Below, piece by piece: positions 32,106-37,640 of a stretch of 64,000 nt of DNA (positions are counted from its first letter, which is position 1; each line of letters begins with the position of its first letter). The stretch lies in contig NZ_FMZS01000003.1 in assembly GCF_900101265.1 (NCBI RefSeq), forward strand, positions 248,001 to 312,000, in the 5' to 3' direction. The notes beneath the pieces are model-generated. The model had not been told where the DNA came from and made no database searches. It saw only the letters and a list, made by a program, of their open reading frames with translations. Position numbers and translations under genes: made by a program. This DNA comes from Massilia sp. PDC64. Lineage in GTDB: Bacteria > Pseudomonadota > Gammaproteobacteria > Burkholderiales > Burkholderiaceae_D.

Positions 32106-32932
32106 CGCAGCTCCCCATCCTCGGCCAGGGCACCTGGAACATGGGTGAAGACCCGTCCGCCCGCGCGGCCGAGGTGGCCGCGCTGCGACTCGGCCTGGAC
32201 CTCGGCATGACCCTGATCGACACGGCCGAGATGTACGGCGAGGGCGGTGCCGAGGAAGTGGTCGGCGACGCCATCGCCGGCCGCCGCGACGACGTCTACC
32301 TGGTCAGCAAGGTGTATCCGCACAACGCGTCGCGCGCGGGCGTGCGCGCCGCGTGCGAGCGCAGCCTGCGCCGTTTGCGCACCGACCGGCTCGACCTCTA
32401 CCTGCTGCACTGGCGCGGCGGCGTGCCGCTGGCGGAGACGCTGGAGGGGTTCGAACGCCTGCGCGACGAGGGAAAGATCCGAGCCTACGGCGTCTCGAAT
32501 TTCGACACGGACGACATGCTGGAAGCGACCGCGCTGCCGGGCGGCGCGGCCATCGCCGCGAACCAGGTGCTCTACAATCTCGTCCAGCGCGGTATCGAAT
32601 GGGACTTGCTGCCGTGGTGCCGCGAGCGGGGCATCCCCGTGATGGCGTATTCGCCGCTGGAATCGACGCCGGCGGAGCAGCGCCCGCTGCTCACGCGTCC
32701 GCAACTGGGCGAGGTGGCGCGCCGGCACGGTGTCACGCCGGCCCAGGTGGCGCTCGCGTGGCTGCTGCGCCAGGACGGCGTCGTCACGATCCCCAAGGCC
32801 GTGCAACCGGCCCACGTGCGCGCCAACCGCGCGGCGCTGGACCTCGCGCCGCAGCTCACACCGGACGACCTGGCGCTGCTGGACGCGGGCTTTCCGGCAC
32901 CCAGCCGGCGCCGTCCGCTGGCGATGCGCTGA
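32102..32932 (+). CDS. Aldo/keto reductase, 276 aa
   Basis: A 276-residue (alpha/beta)8 NADPH-dependent carbonyl reductase. The catalytic tetrad is visible: Asp40 and Tyr45 ([10 protein letters not shown]), Lys70 (YLVSK) and the His of LYLLHWRGG. The sequence resembles the YeaE/diketogulonate reductase subgroup. The start overlaps the fusA stop (ATGA), an odd pairing that suggests joint translation. Its 3' end overlaps the GGDEF-EAL gene on the opposite strand by 77 bp. Confidence 0.88.
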
Positions 32933-34697
32933 GCGCGGTCCGGTCTTCCGAAAGCCAGTGGACCAGGTCCGGCGCGGCGAGGGGACGGCTGTACAGGTAG
33001 CCCTGTCCCTTGGCGCAATCCTGGGCGCGCACGGCTTGCGCCTGCGCTTCCGTCTCGATGCCTTCGGCCACCGTGTTCATGCCGAGGCTCTGCGCCACCT
33101 TCACCGTCGCCTCGATCAGCACGCGGTGGTGGTGGCTCGTGTCGGCCTGGCTCACGAACGAGCGGTCGATCTTGACAGTGTCCACGGGCAGCTGGTGCAG
33201 GCTGGAGAGCGACGAATACCCCGTGCCGAAATCGTCCAGCGCCAGCGTGACGCCGATGGCCTTCAGTTCGTGCAGGCGCTGCTGCACCTGCTGGTCCTGC
33301 GCGGCCAGGCTTTCCGTCACTTCCAGCTGCAGCTGGTCCGGGCGCATGCCGTTCTGCGCCAGCACGTCGCGCACGATCGCGGGCCAGCCCGGCTCCGCCA
33401 GCTGGGCGCGCGACAGGTTCACGGCGAGGAGCCTCGGCGCCCGTTCGCCCAGGGCGCGCTGCCACGCCCCGAAGTCGCTGCAGGCGCGCCGCAGCACGAA
33501 GTCGCCCAGGGCGCCGATGAGGCCCGATTCCTCCGCCACCGGGATGAATTCGACCGGCGGCACGATGCCGCGCACGGGATGGCGCCAGCGCACGAGCGCT
33601 TCGACGCCGGCGGCGTGGTCGGTGGCGCCGTCCGCGTGCAGACCCACGACGGGCTGGTAGACGACGAACAGCTGGTCGTCGACGAGGGCCTGGCGCAGGT
33701 CCGACTCGATGTCGGCGCGGCGCGCGGCCCGCTCGCGCATCGCCGTCTCGAACGCGACGCAGCGGGCGCCGCCCGCGCGCTTGGCCTCGACCATCGCGAT
33801 GCTGGCGTCGCGCAGCATTTCGCCGGCCGCGGCGCCCGCGTCGCCGCTCCACACGAGGCCCATGCTCACGCGGATGACGACGTCCTGGCCGTCCAGCGTA
33901 TGCGGGCGCGCCAGCGCGTCGAGCAGGCGCGTGGCCACGCGTTCGGCGTCGGCGCGGCTGCGCAGGCCGTCCAATACGACGGCGAATTCGTCCGCGCCGG
34001 TGCGGGCCGCCATCTGGCCCGCGCCCGCGTGCGGATCGATGCGGTCGCTGGGCGGGCGGAGCGCGGCGCGGATGCGCTCGGCGATCTGCACGAGCAGACG
34101 GTCGCCCGTGGCCTGGCCCAGCGCGTCGTTGATTTGGCGGAAGCGGTCGCAATTCATGAACAGCAGCGCAAAGCCGGGATGATGCGCACCGCCATCCGCG
34201 AGTGCCGGCCGGTCCAGCATCTGCTGCAGCTGTTCCAGCACCGCTTCGCGATTGGGCATGCGCGTGAGCGCGTCCGTGCGCGCCTGGCTGCGCAGGCGGC
34301 GCGCGAGGCGGTCCTGCTCGCGCTGCACCTCCGCGGTGGCATCGGTCACGGTGGCCATTAGCCGGGTGCCGTCCAGCTTCAGGACGCTCAGCGACAGCAC
34401 CTGCGCTCCGCCCGGCGCGGCCGCGTCGCCCAGCTGCACGCGCAGGCCTTCGCACACGACGCCTGACGGCGCGTCGACGGCCGCCGTCATCTCGCGCAGC
34501 TGCGGCGCCACGTCCTGCAGCACCGTGAACAGGTTATCGAGGCTGCCGTCGCGGGCGAGCGGCATCAGGAGGCTGGACGACATCGGGTTCAGCATGTCGA
34601 CCGTGCCGTCGAGCCCCGCCTGCACGAGGCCGATGGGCGCGCGGTAGAGAAACTGGACCAGCGCCTCGTAGGCGTCGACCTTGTTCGTGTCGTTCAT
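32856..34697 (-). CDS. PAS-like / degenerate GGDEF / EAL protein, probable c-di-GMP phosphodiesterase, 613 aa
   Basis: A cytoplasmic signalling protein. A PAS-like N-terminal domain (about 10-125; [20 protein letters not shown]) is followed by a GGDEF domain (about 135-320) whose active motif is GADEF (234-238) and whose metal region reads [10 protein letters not shown]. Both depart from consensus, so cyclase activity is doubtful. The EAL domain (about 330-590) is intact: EAL at 366-368, [19 protein letters not shown] (488-496), VKIDRSF and AEGIET. It should hydrolyse c-di-GMP, perhaps regulated by GTP on the GGDEF part. It lies 103 bp downstream of the PYP gene on the same strand. GAGGAGAG precedes the start. 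Confidence 0.9.
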
Positions 34698-34720
34698 CGT
34701 CTCTCCTCGTCATTCAATGC

Positions 34721-34765
34721 CGGGCGCCGGCGCCCGACGCGGTCGCGGCCCGCCGCCCTGGCGGG
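34721..34765 (-). other. Two GC-rich hairpins between pyp and the GGDEF-EAL gene
   Basis: 34721-34736 is a perfect 16-bp palindrome (CGGGCGCCGGCGCCCG). 34749-34765 forms CCCGCC/GGCGGG with a 5-nt loop. No T-run follows on the minus strand, so these are more likely an mRNA stability or attenuation structure than a full terminator. They may set different levels for the two genes. Confidence 0.4.
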
Positions 34766-34800
34766 CGCAGGCGTCGCCGACGCGCATGTCGTCCCCGTCG

Positions 34801-35187
34801 TCATGCTTTGCGCCGGACCAGCACGTAGCGCACGGGTACGTCCGGCGCCGCCAGCAGCCGCAGGACGACTTTCACGGGACGCATGCGCAAGGTCAGCACG
34901 TAGTCGATGGTGGCGTCGAGTGCCGCGCCGTCGTCCTGGGCATCCTCGAAGCGTTGCGCCACCATGAAGTTGTTGAGGCAGGGTGCGATGCTCGTGAACA
35001 GCGGCAGGCCCAGCACGCGCGGCGGCGTGAGGCCGGCCGCTTCCGATTCCGTGCGGTTGTACTGGCACACATTGGTGTCGTCATCGAAGCCGATGACGCC
35101 GAAATCGAGCCGGTCGAGCTCGTCCTCTGCCAGTCGCGCAAGGCGCGTGTGCAGGTCCGGAGCGGCGAAGGACAGGTCGGCGGTCAT
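34801..35187 (-). CDS. pyp: Photoactive yellow protein (PYP) homologue, 128 aa
   Basis: A single-domain PAS protein of 128 residues that aligns end to end with Halorhodospira halophila PYP (125 residues). Conserved features are DFGVIGFDDDTNVCQYN, Tyr43 and Glu47 (PYP Tyr42 and Glu46, which hold the chromophore phenolate), and Cys70 in SIAPC (PYP Cys69, the thioester site for p-coumarate). PYP Thr50 and Arg52 are replaced by Ala51 and Leu53, which could shift the absorption maximum and photocycle rate. The C-terminal strand is RYVLVRRK. It is a cytoplasmic blue-light sensor. GGAGCACCC precedes the ATG at 35187. The divergent neighbour is the chromophore-activating ligase; the downstream gene is an EAL protein. 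Confidence 0.88.
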   Translation of the reverse strand: MTADLSFAAPDLHTRLARLAEDELDRLDFGVIGFDDDTNVCQYNRTESEAAGLTPPRVLGLPLFTSIAPCLNNFMVAQRFEDAQDDGAALDATIDYVLTLRMRPVKVVLRLLAAPDVPVRYVLVRRKA

Positions 35188-35227
35188 GGGTGCTCCAGTG
35201 GAAGGTAGTGTTGCAGCGAAGAAATGC

Positions 35228-35256
35228 ATAGTGACATGGCGTCATGTCTCTGTCAA
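35228..35256 (-). promoter_or_regulatory. Probable promoter of pyp
   Basis: On the minus strand a consensus TTGACA (35251-35256) is followed after 17 bp by CACTAT (35228-35233), a weak -10. The spacer contains the palindrome at 35233-35248. The weak -10 suggests dependence on an activator or low basal expression. Confidence 0.5.
35233..35248. promoter_or_regulatory. Palindromic operator in the pyp-pcl intergenic region
   Basis: GACATGGCGTCATGTC is a palindrome with 6-bp arms and a 4-bp centre, lying between the -35 and -10 of the pyp promoter. A further half-site CATGTCA is at 35271-35277. The position suggests a dimeric repressor controlling pyp; the regulator is not adjacent. Confidence 0.5.
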
Positions 35257-35298
35257 ATCTATCGTGCGCACATGTCACATTGCCGCGTCCGTACGCAT

Positions 35299-35327
35299 TT
35301 GACAGCGACGCGCGGGCCCGTCATAGT
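35299..35327 (+). promoter_or_regulatory. Promoter of the PYP-type coumarate ligase gene
   Basis: TTGACA (35299-35304), a 17-bp spacer and CATAGT (35322-35327), 28 bp before the start codon at 35356. The short leader has no strong ribosome site. Confidence 0.6.
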
Positions 35328-35355
35328 CGGCCCGCTTCGGCAATGACGAAAGACC

Positions 35356-36669
35356 ATGTCCGCACGATCACATTCTGCCTCAAGTGGTACCAGGCGCGGC
35401 GCGAGCCCGGACGCGTGGTGGACGCACGGCGATGCCTTGCGCCGCGTCGTCACAGACCTGCTCGCCGCCGAGCTGGCGCAGCTGCGGCCCGGCCGTCCGC
35501 CGTCGCCCTTGCCGTCGTCCCTGCCGTTGCCGTGGCCGCCCGACACCCGGTTCGTGCGCGACCTGGGCGTCGATTCGCTGGAATTGATGGGCCTGGGTAC
35601 AACCCTGGTCGAGGCCTTGCACCTGCGACGCGGCGGTATCGATGAGCAATTGCTGGCCCGGCAGTGCGTCGGCGACTGGGTCGCGAGTGCGCAGGCAAGC
35701 CTGGAAGCCGGCTTGCGGGCCGGCGCGGATGCCGACGGGCCCGCGCTGACCTTTCGCACGTCGGGCAGCAGCGGCAGTCCGAAGCGTTGCACGCATGCGC
35801 TTGCCGTACTGGAGCAGGAGGTCGCCGCGCTGGCGCTCCTCCTGCCCGGGCGGCGCCGCATCCTGAGTGCCGTGCCCAGTCACCATATCTATGGGTTTCT
35901 GTTCACCGTGCTATTGCCCCATCGGCTCATGGGGACGGTGGACCCCGGCGCGGTCGAGGTGGTCGACCTACGCCAGGCCGCTCCGGGCGCGCTGGCCGGC
36001 CTGGCGCGGCCTGGCGACCTGGTCGTGGCGCACCCGGGGTGGTGGGAAGCGGCCGCACGGGTCGTGCCGGCATTCGACGTGGACGTCGTCGGCGTGACGT
36101 CGACCGCGCCGTGTCCGGACGCGCTCGCCGATACCCTGGCCGCCGCCGGCCTGCGCCTGCTGCAGGTTTATGGCAGCTCGGAAACTGCGGGCATTGGCTG
36201 GCGCGACCGTGCGGGCGTGCCGTTCACCTTGTTCTGCTACTGGACCCGCACGGATGACACCGCTAGCGTCGCACGCACGCTGCCGGACGGGACGACACGC
36301 CCCTATCCGCTGCAGGACCGCCTCGACTGGGCGGACGGAACGCACTTCCTGCCCGGGGGACGCCTCGACGGCGCCGTGCAGGTCGGAGGCATGAACGTGT
36401 TCCCGGCCTACGTGGCGGACGTGCTGGCGCTGCATCCGCAGGTGCGGGAAGCCGCGGTGCGGTTGATGCGGCCCGACGAGGGCCGGCGCCTGAAGGCTTT
36501 CGTCGTGGCCCAGCCCGGCGCCGACGTCGACCAGTTGCGGGCCGGGCTGCCCGGCTGGATCGCCGGGCGGCTGACGGCGCCCGAGCGGCCCGTCGCGTGG
36601 ACGTTCGGCTCCCGTCTGCCGCGCCAGGCCAGCGGCAAGCCGGCGGACTGGATCATCGACGCCGAATGA
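35356..36669 (+). CDS. pcl: 4-coumarate-CoA ligase, PYP-activation type, with N-terminal carrier-like segment, 437 aa
   Basis: An adenylate-forming enzyme of 437 residues. AMP-binding motifs are TSGSSGSPK (135-143) and YGSSETAG (272-279), with VGGMNVFPAYV and the C-terminal catalytic Lys region RQASGKPADW. It is shorter than plant-type 4CL, as is usual for the ligases found beside PYP genes, which activate p-coumarate for attachment to the PYP cysteine. The first 110 residues hold a helical region with RDLGVDSLELMGLGTTLVEA, an acyl-carrier-like phosphopantetheine motif (Ser74). If modified, it could hold the coumaroyl group as a thioester before transfer. It is divergent from pyp, with 168 bp between the start codons. 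Confidence 0.82.
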   Translation: MSARSHSASSGTRRGASPDAWWTHGDALRRVVTDLLAAELAQLRPGRPPSPLPSSLPLPWPPDTRFVRDLGVDSLELMGLGTTLVEALHLRRGGIDEQLLARQCVGDWVASAQASLEAGLRAGADADGPALTFRTSGSSGSPKRCTHALAVLEQEVAALALLLPGRRRILSAVPSHHIYGFLFTVLLPHRLMGTVDPGAVEVVDLRQAAPGALAGLARPGDLVVAHPGWWEAAARVVPAFDVDVVGVTSTAPCPDALADTLAAAGLRLLQVYGSSETAGIGWRDRAGVPFTLFCYWTRTDDTASVARTLPDGTTRPYPLQDRLDWADGTHFLPGGRLDGAVQVGGMNVFPAYVADVLALHPQVREAAVRLMRPDEGRRLKAFVVAQPGADVDQLRAGLPGWIAGRLTAPERPVAWTFGSRLPRQASGKPADWIIDAE

Positions 36670-36795
36670 CGTCACCGCACGCCGGCGGCGCTTGATCCGA
36701 TCGGCTCCGCGGCCGTGTGCGCGGAATCTTGCGGCTTCGTTCCACTCGAACGTCGACGGCAGCCGAGCGGACCGTGCACGCGCAGACCCGAGACC

Positions 36796-37164
36796 ATGAA
36801 CATCCAGATCGAAGCCAAGGACATCGTCCTCATCCTCGTGGGCGTGGCGAGCAGCGTGGTCGCGAGCTATATCTACCGGTATCTGGAAAGCGCCAGTTCC
36901 GCGTCGCAGGCGCTGGAACGCGACCTCGATTCCACCGACCCGGTCGTGCGCGAGCGGGCGGCACGGCATTGCCTGCTGACGGCCGCGAAATTCTTCGTGT
37001 TCGCGAACATCTTCACCGTCGTCTCGGGCGGCGCCTGGATCTTCGGCAACGCCTTGTACGACCTCACGTTGCTGGTGCTGGGGGCGTCGTCGGTGATCGC
37101 CATCCTGCTGCTGTGGGGTGCCTTGCGCTGGCTCGTGCGCGCACAGAAAGGCAATGCCCGCTGA
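36796..37164 (+). CDS. Small membrane protein, 122 aa
   Basis: A 122-residue protein with three hydrophobic helices (about 9-26, 62-82 and 88-112) separated by a charged loop rich in Ala, Glu and Arg (RDLDSTDPVVRERAARH). No family is recognised. It lies 126 bp downstream of pcl on the same strand. The start at 36796 (MNIQIEAKDIVLILV) gives a sensible membrane protein, and upstream in-frame sequence looks non-coding. Confidence 0.6.
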   Translation: MNIQIEAKDIVLILVGVASSVVASYIYRYLESASSASQALERDLDSTDPVVRERAARHCLLTAAKFFVFANIFTVVSGGAWIFGNALYDLTLLVLGASSVIAILLLWGALRWLVRAQKGNAR

Positions 37165-37175
37165 GGCGCGCTGGG

Positions 37176-37640
37176 TCAGGACGCCGCCTGCGTGTCCGCC
37201 ACGACCACCGTCATGTAGGCATCCAGGAATTCCTGTGGCATGCGGCGCGGCCGGCCGCTCGAGAGTTCGATGCACACGAGGTCCCAGCGGCCGCGCAGCA
37301 CCGTCGCGCCGTCCCGTTCGCGCACGAGCTGGAAGCGGCGTTCCATCACGAGCTTGCCATCGCCCGCGACGAGCCACGTGCCGAGCACGAGCGCCTCGCC
37401 GGCAAAGGTCGGCAGCAGGTAATCGTATTCGCCGCGCCGGATCGCCATGGCGCGGTCGAGGCGCCGGTAGTCGTCCAGCGACAGGCCAAGCGCCTCGGAG
37501 TGGGCCCATCCGGCCTGTTCGCACCAGCGGACGTAGACGGCATTGTTGGTGTGGTTCAGCCCGTCGATGTCGGCCGCTTCGGGCACGCGGGGCAGGGTGA
37601 ACGGGTGCGGGTAATCCCAATCCAAGACGAGTCCTTCCAA
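37176..37640 (-). CDS. Acyl-CoA thioesterase (hotdog fold, 4HBT type), 154 aa
   Basis: A 154-residue single-hotdog thioesterase. The family motif appears as DIDGLNHTNNAVYVRWCEQA, with the usual central Asn and Tyr, followed by DYLLPTFAGEALVLGTWLV. It should hydrolyse an acyl-CoA in the cytoplasm, and relatives include 4-hydroxybenzoyl-CoA thioesterases. Its nearness to the coumarate ligase is suggestive (removal of excess coumaroyl-CoA) but there is no operon link: it is on the opposite strand and separated by a membrane-protein gene. Confidence 0.82.
   Translation of the reverse strand: MEGLVLDWDYPHPFTLPRVPEAADIDGLNHTNNAVYVRWCEQAGWAHSEALGLSLDDYRRLDRAMAIRRGEYDYLLPTFAGEALVLGTWLVAGDGKLVMERRFQLVRERDGATVLRGRWDLVCIELSSGRPRRMPQEFLDAYMTVVVADTQAAS

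Follow-up and report, generated by a model that had tools for sequence, protein, structure and literature searches.

Photoactive yellow protein (PYP) is among the photoreceptors best studied by physical means, yet its signalling chain and partners are still described as poorly understood (PMC9664959, PMC12826048); some studies cited in PMC9664959 found PYP binding to proteins encoded nearby. The locus analysed here raises the question of which part of such a partner a free, single-domain PYP addresses. It lies in a 64,000-nucleotide stretch of DNA from Massilia sp. PDC64 (contig NZ_FMZS01000003.1), hereafter the window, which is part of a 7.5-Mb genome in 36 contigs, and it brings together a free PYP, a protein with GGDEF and EAL domains for the turnover of cyclic di-GMP (c-di-GMP), and a p-coumarate ligase. 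The closest named relatives at the locus are Massilia phosphatilytica, M. kyonggiensis and Massilia sp. Root133, with which the PYP shares 86-89% identity; the EAL protein is up to 93% identical to its relatives.

Our answer, to which we assign a probability of about 0.6, is that the window carries a reduced light cassette of the PYP group known as clade C, in which the free PYP signals to an N-terminal domain (NTD) of the downstream protein and thereby controls c-di-GMP turnover. The PYP would bind p-coumarate on Cys69, loaded with the help of the divergently encoded ligase, and blue light would alter its conformation. The free PYP would then act by direct contact on the NTD of the GGDEF-EAL protein, and the C-terminal helix of the NTD would in turn alter EAL phosphodiesterase activity. 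In most relatives the PYP faces both an NTD-bearing cyclase and an NTD-bearing phosphodiesterase, and light could set the balance between synthesis and breakdown; in the window the breakdown arm alone remains. We infer the control of c-di-GMP by light from conservation, and likewise chromophore binding, PYP-NTD contact, the direction of the light effect and an effect on motility or biofilm. The genes, their residues, the NTD family with its clade-C PYP association, and a deletion relic are observed directly. The features of the locus are:

34801..35187, minus strand: pyp, clade-C photoactive yellow protein of 128 residues (TIGR02373 and PDB matches, equivalents of Tyr42, Glu46 and Cys69, GGAG before the ATG)
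32856..34697, minus strand: NTD-GGDEF-EAL protein of 613 residues, a predicted c-di-GMP phosphodiesterase (Pfam; degenerate GADEF, full set of EAL motif patterns)
34308..34697, minus strand: the NTD, a divergent predicted PAS domain and proposed PYP receiver (association with clade-C PYP, predicted fold)
33768..34280, minus strand: residues 140-310, the GGDEF domain, whose signature reads GADEF (Pfam)
32982..33701, minus strand: EAL domain, residues 333-572 (Pfam, motif patterns)
34698..34764, minus strand: remnant of a deleted NTD-GGDEF cyclase gene (its 3' end), located in the gap from pyp to the EAL gene (blastn)
35356..36669, plus strand: pcl-type p-coumarate ligase of 437 residues with a carrier-protein-like N-terminus, divergent from pyp (TIGR02372)

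The longest open reading frame (ORF) of pyp, 34801-35229 (-), would encode 142 residues. Translation most likely starts from the internal ATG at 35187, because it is preceded by GGAG with a 5-nt spacer and because the similarity to TIGR02373 and to PDB sequences sets in at residue 19-20 of the 142-residue form. The resulting protein is the 128-residue PYP with Tyr43, Glu47 and Cys70 named in the original prediction, and reading frame, profile match, PDB matches and residues all agree on it: with numbering taken from the 1gsv chain, the equivalents of Tyr42, Glu46 and Cys69 are Y57, E61 and C84 of the 142-residue form, or Y43, E47 and C70 of the 128-residue form. The score against TIGR02373 (77.8 bits, E 7e-22) lies under the curated cut-off of 143.05; since that model picks up about 20% of the PYP homologs (PMC9664959), the missed cut-off is no fair defining mark. 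A PDB search with the window PYP returned 33 distinct sequences at E <= 0.001 (best 1e-16), all of them PYP, Ppr or PYP-derived FAST. A PYP profile search found one copy in the genome.

Using the TIGR02373 cut-off to define canonical PYPs, we divided the PYPs of 245 family genomes, a sample drawn from a larger group, into two classes: canonical (179-198 bits) in 13 genomes and divergent (61-91 bits) in 47, the window's included, with some genomes carrying both. All 103 sequences of the divergent class retain Tyr42, Glu46, Cys69 and Tyr94, and 101-103 of them have Leu52, Leu96, Thr97, Arg99, Arg108 and Asn72, positions at which the 13 canonical PYPs differ. Clade C is marked by the loss of Phe92, Phe96 and Trp119 and the retention of Met100 (PMC9664959). 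At these positions the window PYP carries I108, L112, Y135 and M116, which agree with the clade-C marks, and by such residue marks both it and the divergent class match clade C. According to PMC9664959, no member of this clade had been characterised.

The EAL protein, encoded downstream of pyp on the same strand as had been claimed, contains only GGDEF (103 bits) and EAL (PF00563, 237 bits) among Pfam domains. Its GGDEF signature reads GADEF and is degenerate, as had also been noted, and it contains all six of the EAL catalytic motif patterns tested; we therefore predict it to be a c-di-GMP phosphodiesterase. Counting some loci twice, all six patterns are present in 103 of 105 phosphodiesterase ORFs, and GGEEF is present in 102 of 110 cyclase ORFs.

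These cyclases come from an extra gene that most relatives have between pyp and the EAL gene, and the N-terminus of its product is about 50% identical to that of the EAL protein. The usual operon order is pyp, then an NTD-(PAS-like stretch)-GGDEF protein of about 450 residues, then an NTD-GGDEF-EAL protein of about 590 residues. Taking residues 1-130 of the window EAL protein as the NTD, we built a search profile from 36 NTDs. It matched 48 of the 245 family genomes, the weakest at 1e-34, and gave no match from there down to the limit of 1e-6. Of the 245 genomes, 47 contain both an NTD and a clade-C PYP, 1 contains NTD alone, 0 contain PYP alone and 197 contain neither. Among 349 genomes drawn from the phylum, a clear NTD was found only in two of the window's genus, both with clade-C PYP; one further genome gave a weak match (2.6e-6, 28 bits). 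The PYP profile matched six of the 349, namely the same two, three of another family (G411, G387 and G514, with PYP-like domains in frames of about 900 residues, E 1e-19 to 7e-10) and one weakly. The occurrence of PYP-like domains without NTD in those three limits the PYP-NTD rule to clade C.

For counts at single loci, the set combined 49 loci holding clade-C PYP with 80 named ones, the best of 227 confirmed after a search with two peptide patterns from close clade-C PYPs; once identical PYPs had been dropped, 104 distinct clade-C PYPs, the window's included, remained at 103 loci, one of which, L177, holds two. Many of these loci come from Massilia and close kin. Counting NTD matches of at least 35 bits, an NTD starts -7 to 113 bp past the PYP stop (median 21), on the same strand, for 104 of the 104 clade-C PYPs. 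Downstream of canonical PYPs, checked over 1.2 kb, it was found for 0 of 16 distinct proteins. That blue light acts through PYP on c-di-GMP, the central idea of the original prediction, is the published expectation for clade C; it remains plausible and is strengthened by this 104 of 104, and its light step is still something that we infer.

What follows the NTD varies. The 177 NTDs at the 103 loci lead into GGDEF (84), GGDEF plus EAL (83) or neither (10). By architecture, and with some loci interrupted by contig ends, 66 of the loci hold cyclase and phosphodiesterase, 14 a cyclase alone, 11 a phosphodiesterase alone (as in the window), 5 an NTD protein without GGDEF before the phosphodiesterase, 4 neither domain, 2 two GGDEF proteins, and 1 a phosphodiesterase followed by another NTD protein. 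In five genomes with a cyclase-only PYP locus, which has no NTD-phosphodiesterase, such a protein is encoded elsewhere (L184-L188); G096 has instead a second, unlinked NTD-cyclase (L182). Pfam histidine-kinase domains follow the NTD in L141, L166 and L177, and an HD domain follows it in L177. The NTD proteins of these two kinds beside clade-C PYP are:

L177:2565-3695, L177:6377-8293, L141:1255-2445 and L166:8293-9600: NTD on an HD-domain protein or histidine kinases (Pfam)

L141 and L177 come from metagenome bins, whose labels (Archangium and Geobacteraceae) are less sure, and the weaker of the NTDs of L177 reaches only 39 bits. It is because the NTD, and not one particular output, follows clade-C PYP that the coupling of PYP to the NTD is supported. 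Taken one step further, the NTD may form a PAS subfamily whose evolved role is to dock free PYP and receive its signal, an interchangeable module placing cyclases, phosphodiesterases, histidine kinases and HD-domain proteins under blue-light control; we regard this wider proposal as an even bet. As separate observations, L059 and L066 (also L152 and L158) have single ORFs of 850-930 residues in which a cyclase-type NTD is followed by NTD-GGDEF-EAL, the first GGDEF being absent, and in L115, L128 and L134 a shortened cyclase gene retains the NTD with the GGDEF gone.

The predicted fold of the NTD is that of a PAS domain. By sequence, Pfam gave no significant match among the 36 members, only two single-member matches at chance level (E 0.06 and 0.07), and PDB sequences gave nothing below E 0.64, the two matches at 0.64 and 0.8 both being sensor kinases. 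We nevertheless take it to be PAS on the strength of structure prediction. AlphaFold, run on 97 NTDs, gave a mean predicted local distance difference test score of 91.9 and a predicted template modelling score (pTM) of 0.78, with the elements in PAS order: helix, two strands, three helices, three strands, long helix. In Foldseek, the best PDB folds for this model were PAS proteins such as FixL (1.8e-4) and DosP (4e-4), the TM-scores among the 50 matches listed being moderate, 0.36-0.63 when normalised by query length, and a PYP standing at rank 42. The NTD is thus predicted to be a divergent PAS domain whose C-terminal helix leads into the output domain. The idea that it is a degenerate copy of PYP itself was rejected, with a profile comparison probability of 0.64% (E 0.089).

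That the window holds a reduced system, a point on which the original prediction does not hold, is evident from positions 34764-34698, between pyp and the EAL gene. In L102, L103 and L104 the cyclase gene sits at this place. By blastn, these window positions match the 3' end of the cyclase gene in an alignment that continues into the EAL gene, at 90% identity; a single alignment to the cyclase tail and EAL gene start of L102 has 238 of 264 positions identical. The breakpoint at 34764 is the same against all three loci, and about 1.2 kb is absent from the window. The window is therefore a PYP/cyclase/phosphodiesterase system reduced by loss of the cyclase, of which a relic of about 65 bp is left. 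On a tree of 81 phosphodiesterases (quickly built, with some long branches; 2 of 83 were dropped as too short or of unclear state), the label 'cyclase present' needs 12 changes, of which starred branches force 9 or more, so that cyclase loss or truncation happened several times. Given the frequency of GGEEF among the cyclase ORFs, the lost partner is apparently an active cyclase in most relatives.

Several results weigh against signalling from PYP to the NTD, some touching the contact and others the chromophore. When the 12 loci with pyp and NTD in frame were modelled by AlphaFold as one chain, the stop read as glycine and PYP thus read through into the NTD, the pTM was 0.59 (there was no control job), too low for a confident arrangement, the linker was poorly modelled and the NTD was modelled worse than alone. 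In a mirror-tree analysis of 81 loci, the partial correlation was 0.23 for PYP-NTD (bootstrap 0.11-0.35) versus 0.38 for PYP-GGDEF (0.23-0.48). One genome, G072, has an orphan NTD-cyclase (L183, G072:C4) with no detectable clade-C PYP, and the four further genomes that matched the PYP profile in the phylum sample (G411, G387, G514 and the weak one) are without NTD. Distant clade-C members are under-sampled by peptide patterns taken from close PYPs, and the co-occurrence of neighbours may reflect plain operon inheritance. On the chromophore side, no pcl-type ligase was found at E 1e-40 in 20 of the 48 NTD genomes (the best 31 candidates being scored in many of them), and a search of the window's genome for tyrosine ammonia-lyase (TAL), the source of p-coumarate asked for by the original prediction, did not find one. 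Holo-PYP is therefore not assured. We found one candidate for a natural PYP-NTD fusion, an ORF in L077 with both matches, and set it aside, its PYP match being just 20 bits in a second PAS-like region.

The points on contact bear mainly on an alternative in which the NTD works like any common PAS domain, sensing a ligand of its own or holding cyclase and phosphodiesterase together, and in which PYP is only co-transcribed and acts elsewhere. PAS domains commonly dimerise and bind ligands, the NTD is predicted to have this fold, and the cyclase NTD and phosphodiesterase NTD are homologous; furthermore, the mirror-tree does not single out the NTD, and the NTD-cyclase of G072 does without detectable PYP. 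An ordinary PAS domain, however, would not be expected behind every clade-C PYP and no canonical one. The NTD also occurs beside PYP on histidine-kinase and HD proteins, where there is no cyclase-phosphodiesterase pair to join, and in 11 loci, the window's among them, it is present with a phosphodiesterase alone. We consider this alternative unlikely.

A second alternative, which we consider distinctly improbable, is that the cassette no longer senses light here, the PYP being chromophore-free or responsive to the supply of p-coumarate from plant material. It gains from the repeated loss or truncation of the cyclase, from the genomes in which no pcl was found, and from the lyase search, in which the sole PF00221 aromatic lyase found in the genome was HutH (TIGR01225 654 bits, cut-off 539). 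The frame beside HutH we take to be urocanase. Set against this, the equivalents of Tyr42, Glu46 and Cys69 are kept throughout the 103 divergent PYPs, and the ligase frame of the window is still open. The missing lyase weakens the light proposal and does not refute it, because pyp operons include TAL in only 5% of cases (pcl in 32%) and uptake of p-coumarate is mentioned as possible (PMC12826048). The bacterium of the window would thus need an external supply of p-coumarate or some other way of obtaining it. Many relatives do have a second aromatic lyase, in some cases near canonical PYP (e.g. G012, G053, G149, G003). A third alternative, chance or historical adjacency in an inherited block without functional link between PYP and EAL protein, we reject as very improbable: genes often travel in blocks and the set is rich in Massilia and close kin, but the spacing stays within -7 to 113 bp in all 104, NTD and clade-C PYP are jointly present or absent across the family with one exception, and the NTD stays beside PYP on other outputs as well.

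We return to light signalling through the NTD as the preferred reading, and to how much of it is new. Clade-C PYPs of Burkholderiales were reported to adjoin GGDEF and EAL genes by Xing, Gumerov and Zhulin in 2022 (PMC9664959), with the same clade marks and the same kinds of neighbours as in the window, and Dohmen et al. in 2025 (PMC12826048) counted 29 pyp operons with GGDEF genes and 22 with EAL genes, in which a free PYP is likewise predicted to share its operon with enzymes of c-di-GMP turnover. A free PYP next to an EAL gene is thus not a new arrangement, and the suggestion that the three-gene form is less described does not hold. The available text of PMC9664959 describes no N-terminal domain shared by the neighbours, and the window differs from the systems there in lacking the cyclase; that of PMC12826048 names no PYP-specific receiver domain, whereas here the NTD is proposed as one and counted. 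In the open-licence literature on PYP signalling and neighbours, as far as its accessible text goes, we found no description of a shared PYP-associated NTD, and in the open-licence literature no direct report of PYP in Massilia. Clade C, its GGDEF/EAL neighbours and the idea of light control of c-di-GMP are known; the proposed new element is the shared NTD associated with clade-C PYP, as a candidate for the region of the partner that PYP addresses.

Three known systems help to place the window. Idiomarina loihiensis has a free PYP adjoining a GGDEF protein, with a reported light-dependent biofilm output (PMC9664959, PMC12826048), and its PYP putatively binds that protein (PMC9664959); free PYP and adjacent c-di-GMP enzyme are shared with the window, but the Idiomarina PYP belongs to clade A and the window's to clade C. 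Ppd of Thermochromatium tepidum also couples a blue-light PYP to GGDEF-EAL, as one PYP-phytochrome-GGDEF-EAL chain, whereas the window has separate ORFs, an EAL protein with only GGDEF and EAL in Pfam, and a free PYP facing a PAS domain in another protein. PAS-GGDEF-EAL proteins of the DosP type have the same overall architecture and PAS fold neighbourhood as the window EAL protein. DosP senses through its own haem-bearing PAS, while in the window the sensor would be a separate protein.

The presence of one NTD of about 130 residues on enzymes of both c-di-GMP synthesis and breakdown reduces the question of PYP signalling to the binding of two small proteins. If the proposal is true, single-domain PYP would have a defined receiver domain, and the pair would make a two-part optogenetic module; the window, a naturally occurring form in which just the breakdown arm is left, is useful for separating the two arms.

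The divergent 437-residue coumarate ligase of the original prediction was borne out at 35356-36669 (+), where it adjoins pyp and matches TIGR02372 over its full length (290.5 bits, E 1.5e-86, model positions 6-384 of 386). This is under the curated cut-off of 334.7, which only 4 of the 48 NTD genomes pass and 9 of the 13 canonical-PYP genomes fail too. A pcl-type ligase was found in 28 of the 48, the window's included. The N-terminal part of the ligase, 35356-35715 (+), resembles a phosphopantetheine carrier domain. The resemblance concerns roughly the first 90 residues: all 18 aligned ligases that neighbour a canonical or clade-C PYP share D-S-L there, and 9 of the 18 give a weak Pfam PP-binding match (best 1.7e-4; that of the window, at 0.011, is under the cut-off). 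If this carrier domain is real, p-coumarate might be held on the ligase's own carrier arm. Before pcl stands one further feature:

35299..35327, plus strand: sigma-70-like promoter match, 10 of 12 positions (consensus match only)

It is the 1 such match found in 32600-37200, against 0.1 expected from shuffles. In L068 and L069, a canonical PYP and ligase lie about 2 kb from the clade-C cassette, divergently, and the coordinates place an aromatic lyase in between. Finally, just past the window ligase, at 37176-37640 (-), there is a 4HBT-type thioesterase that has counterparts of 89-90% identity in L072 and L078.

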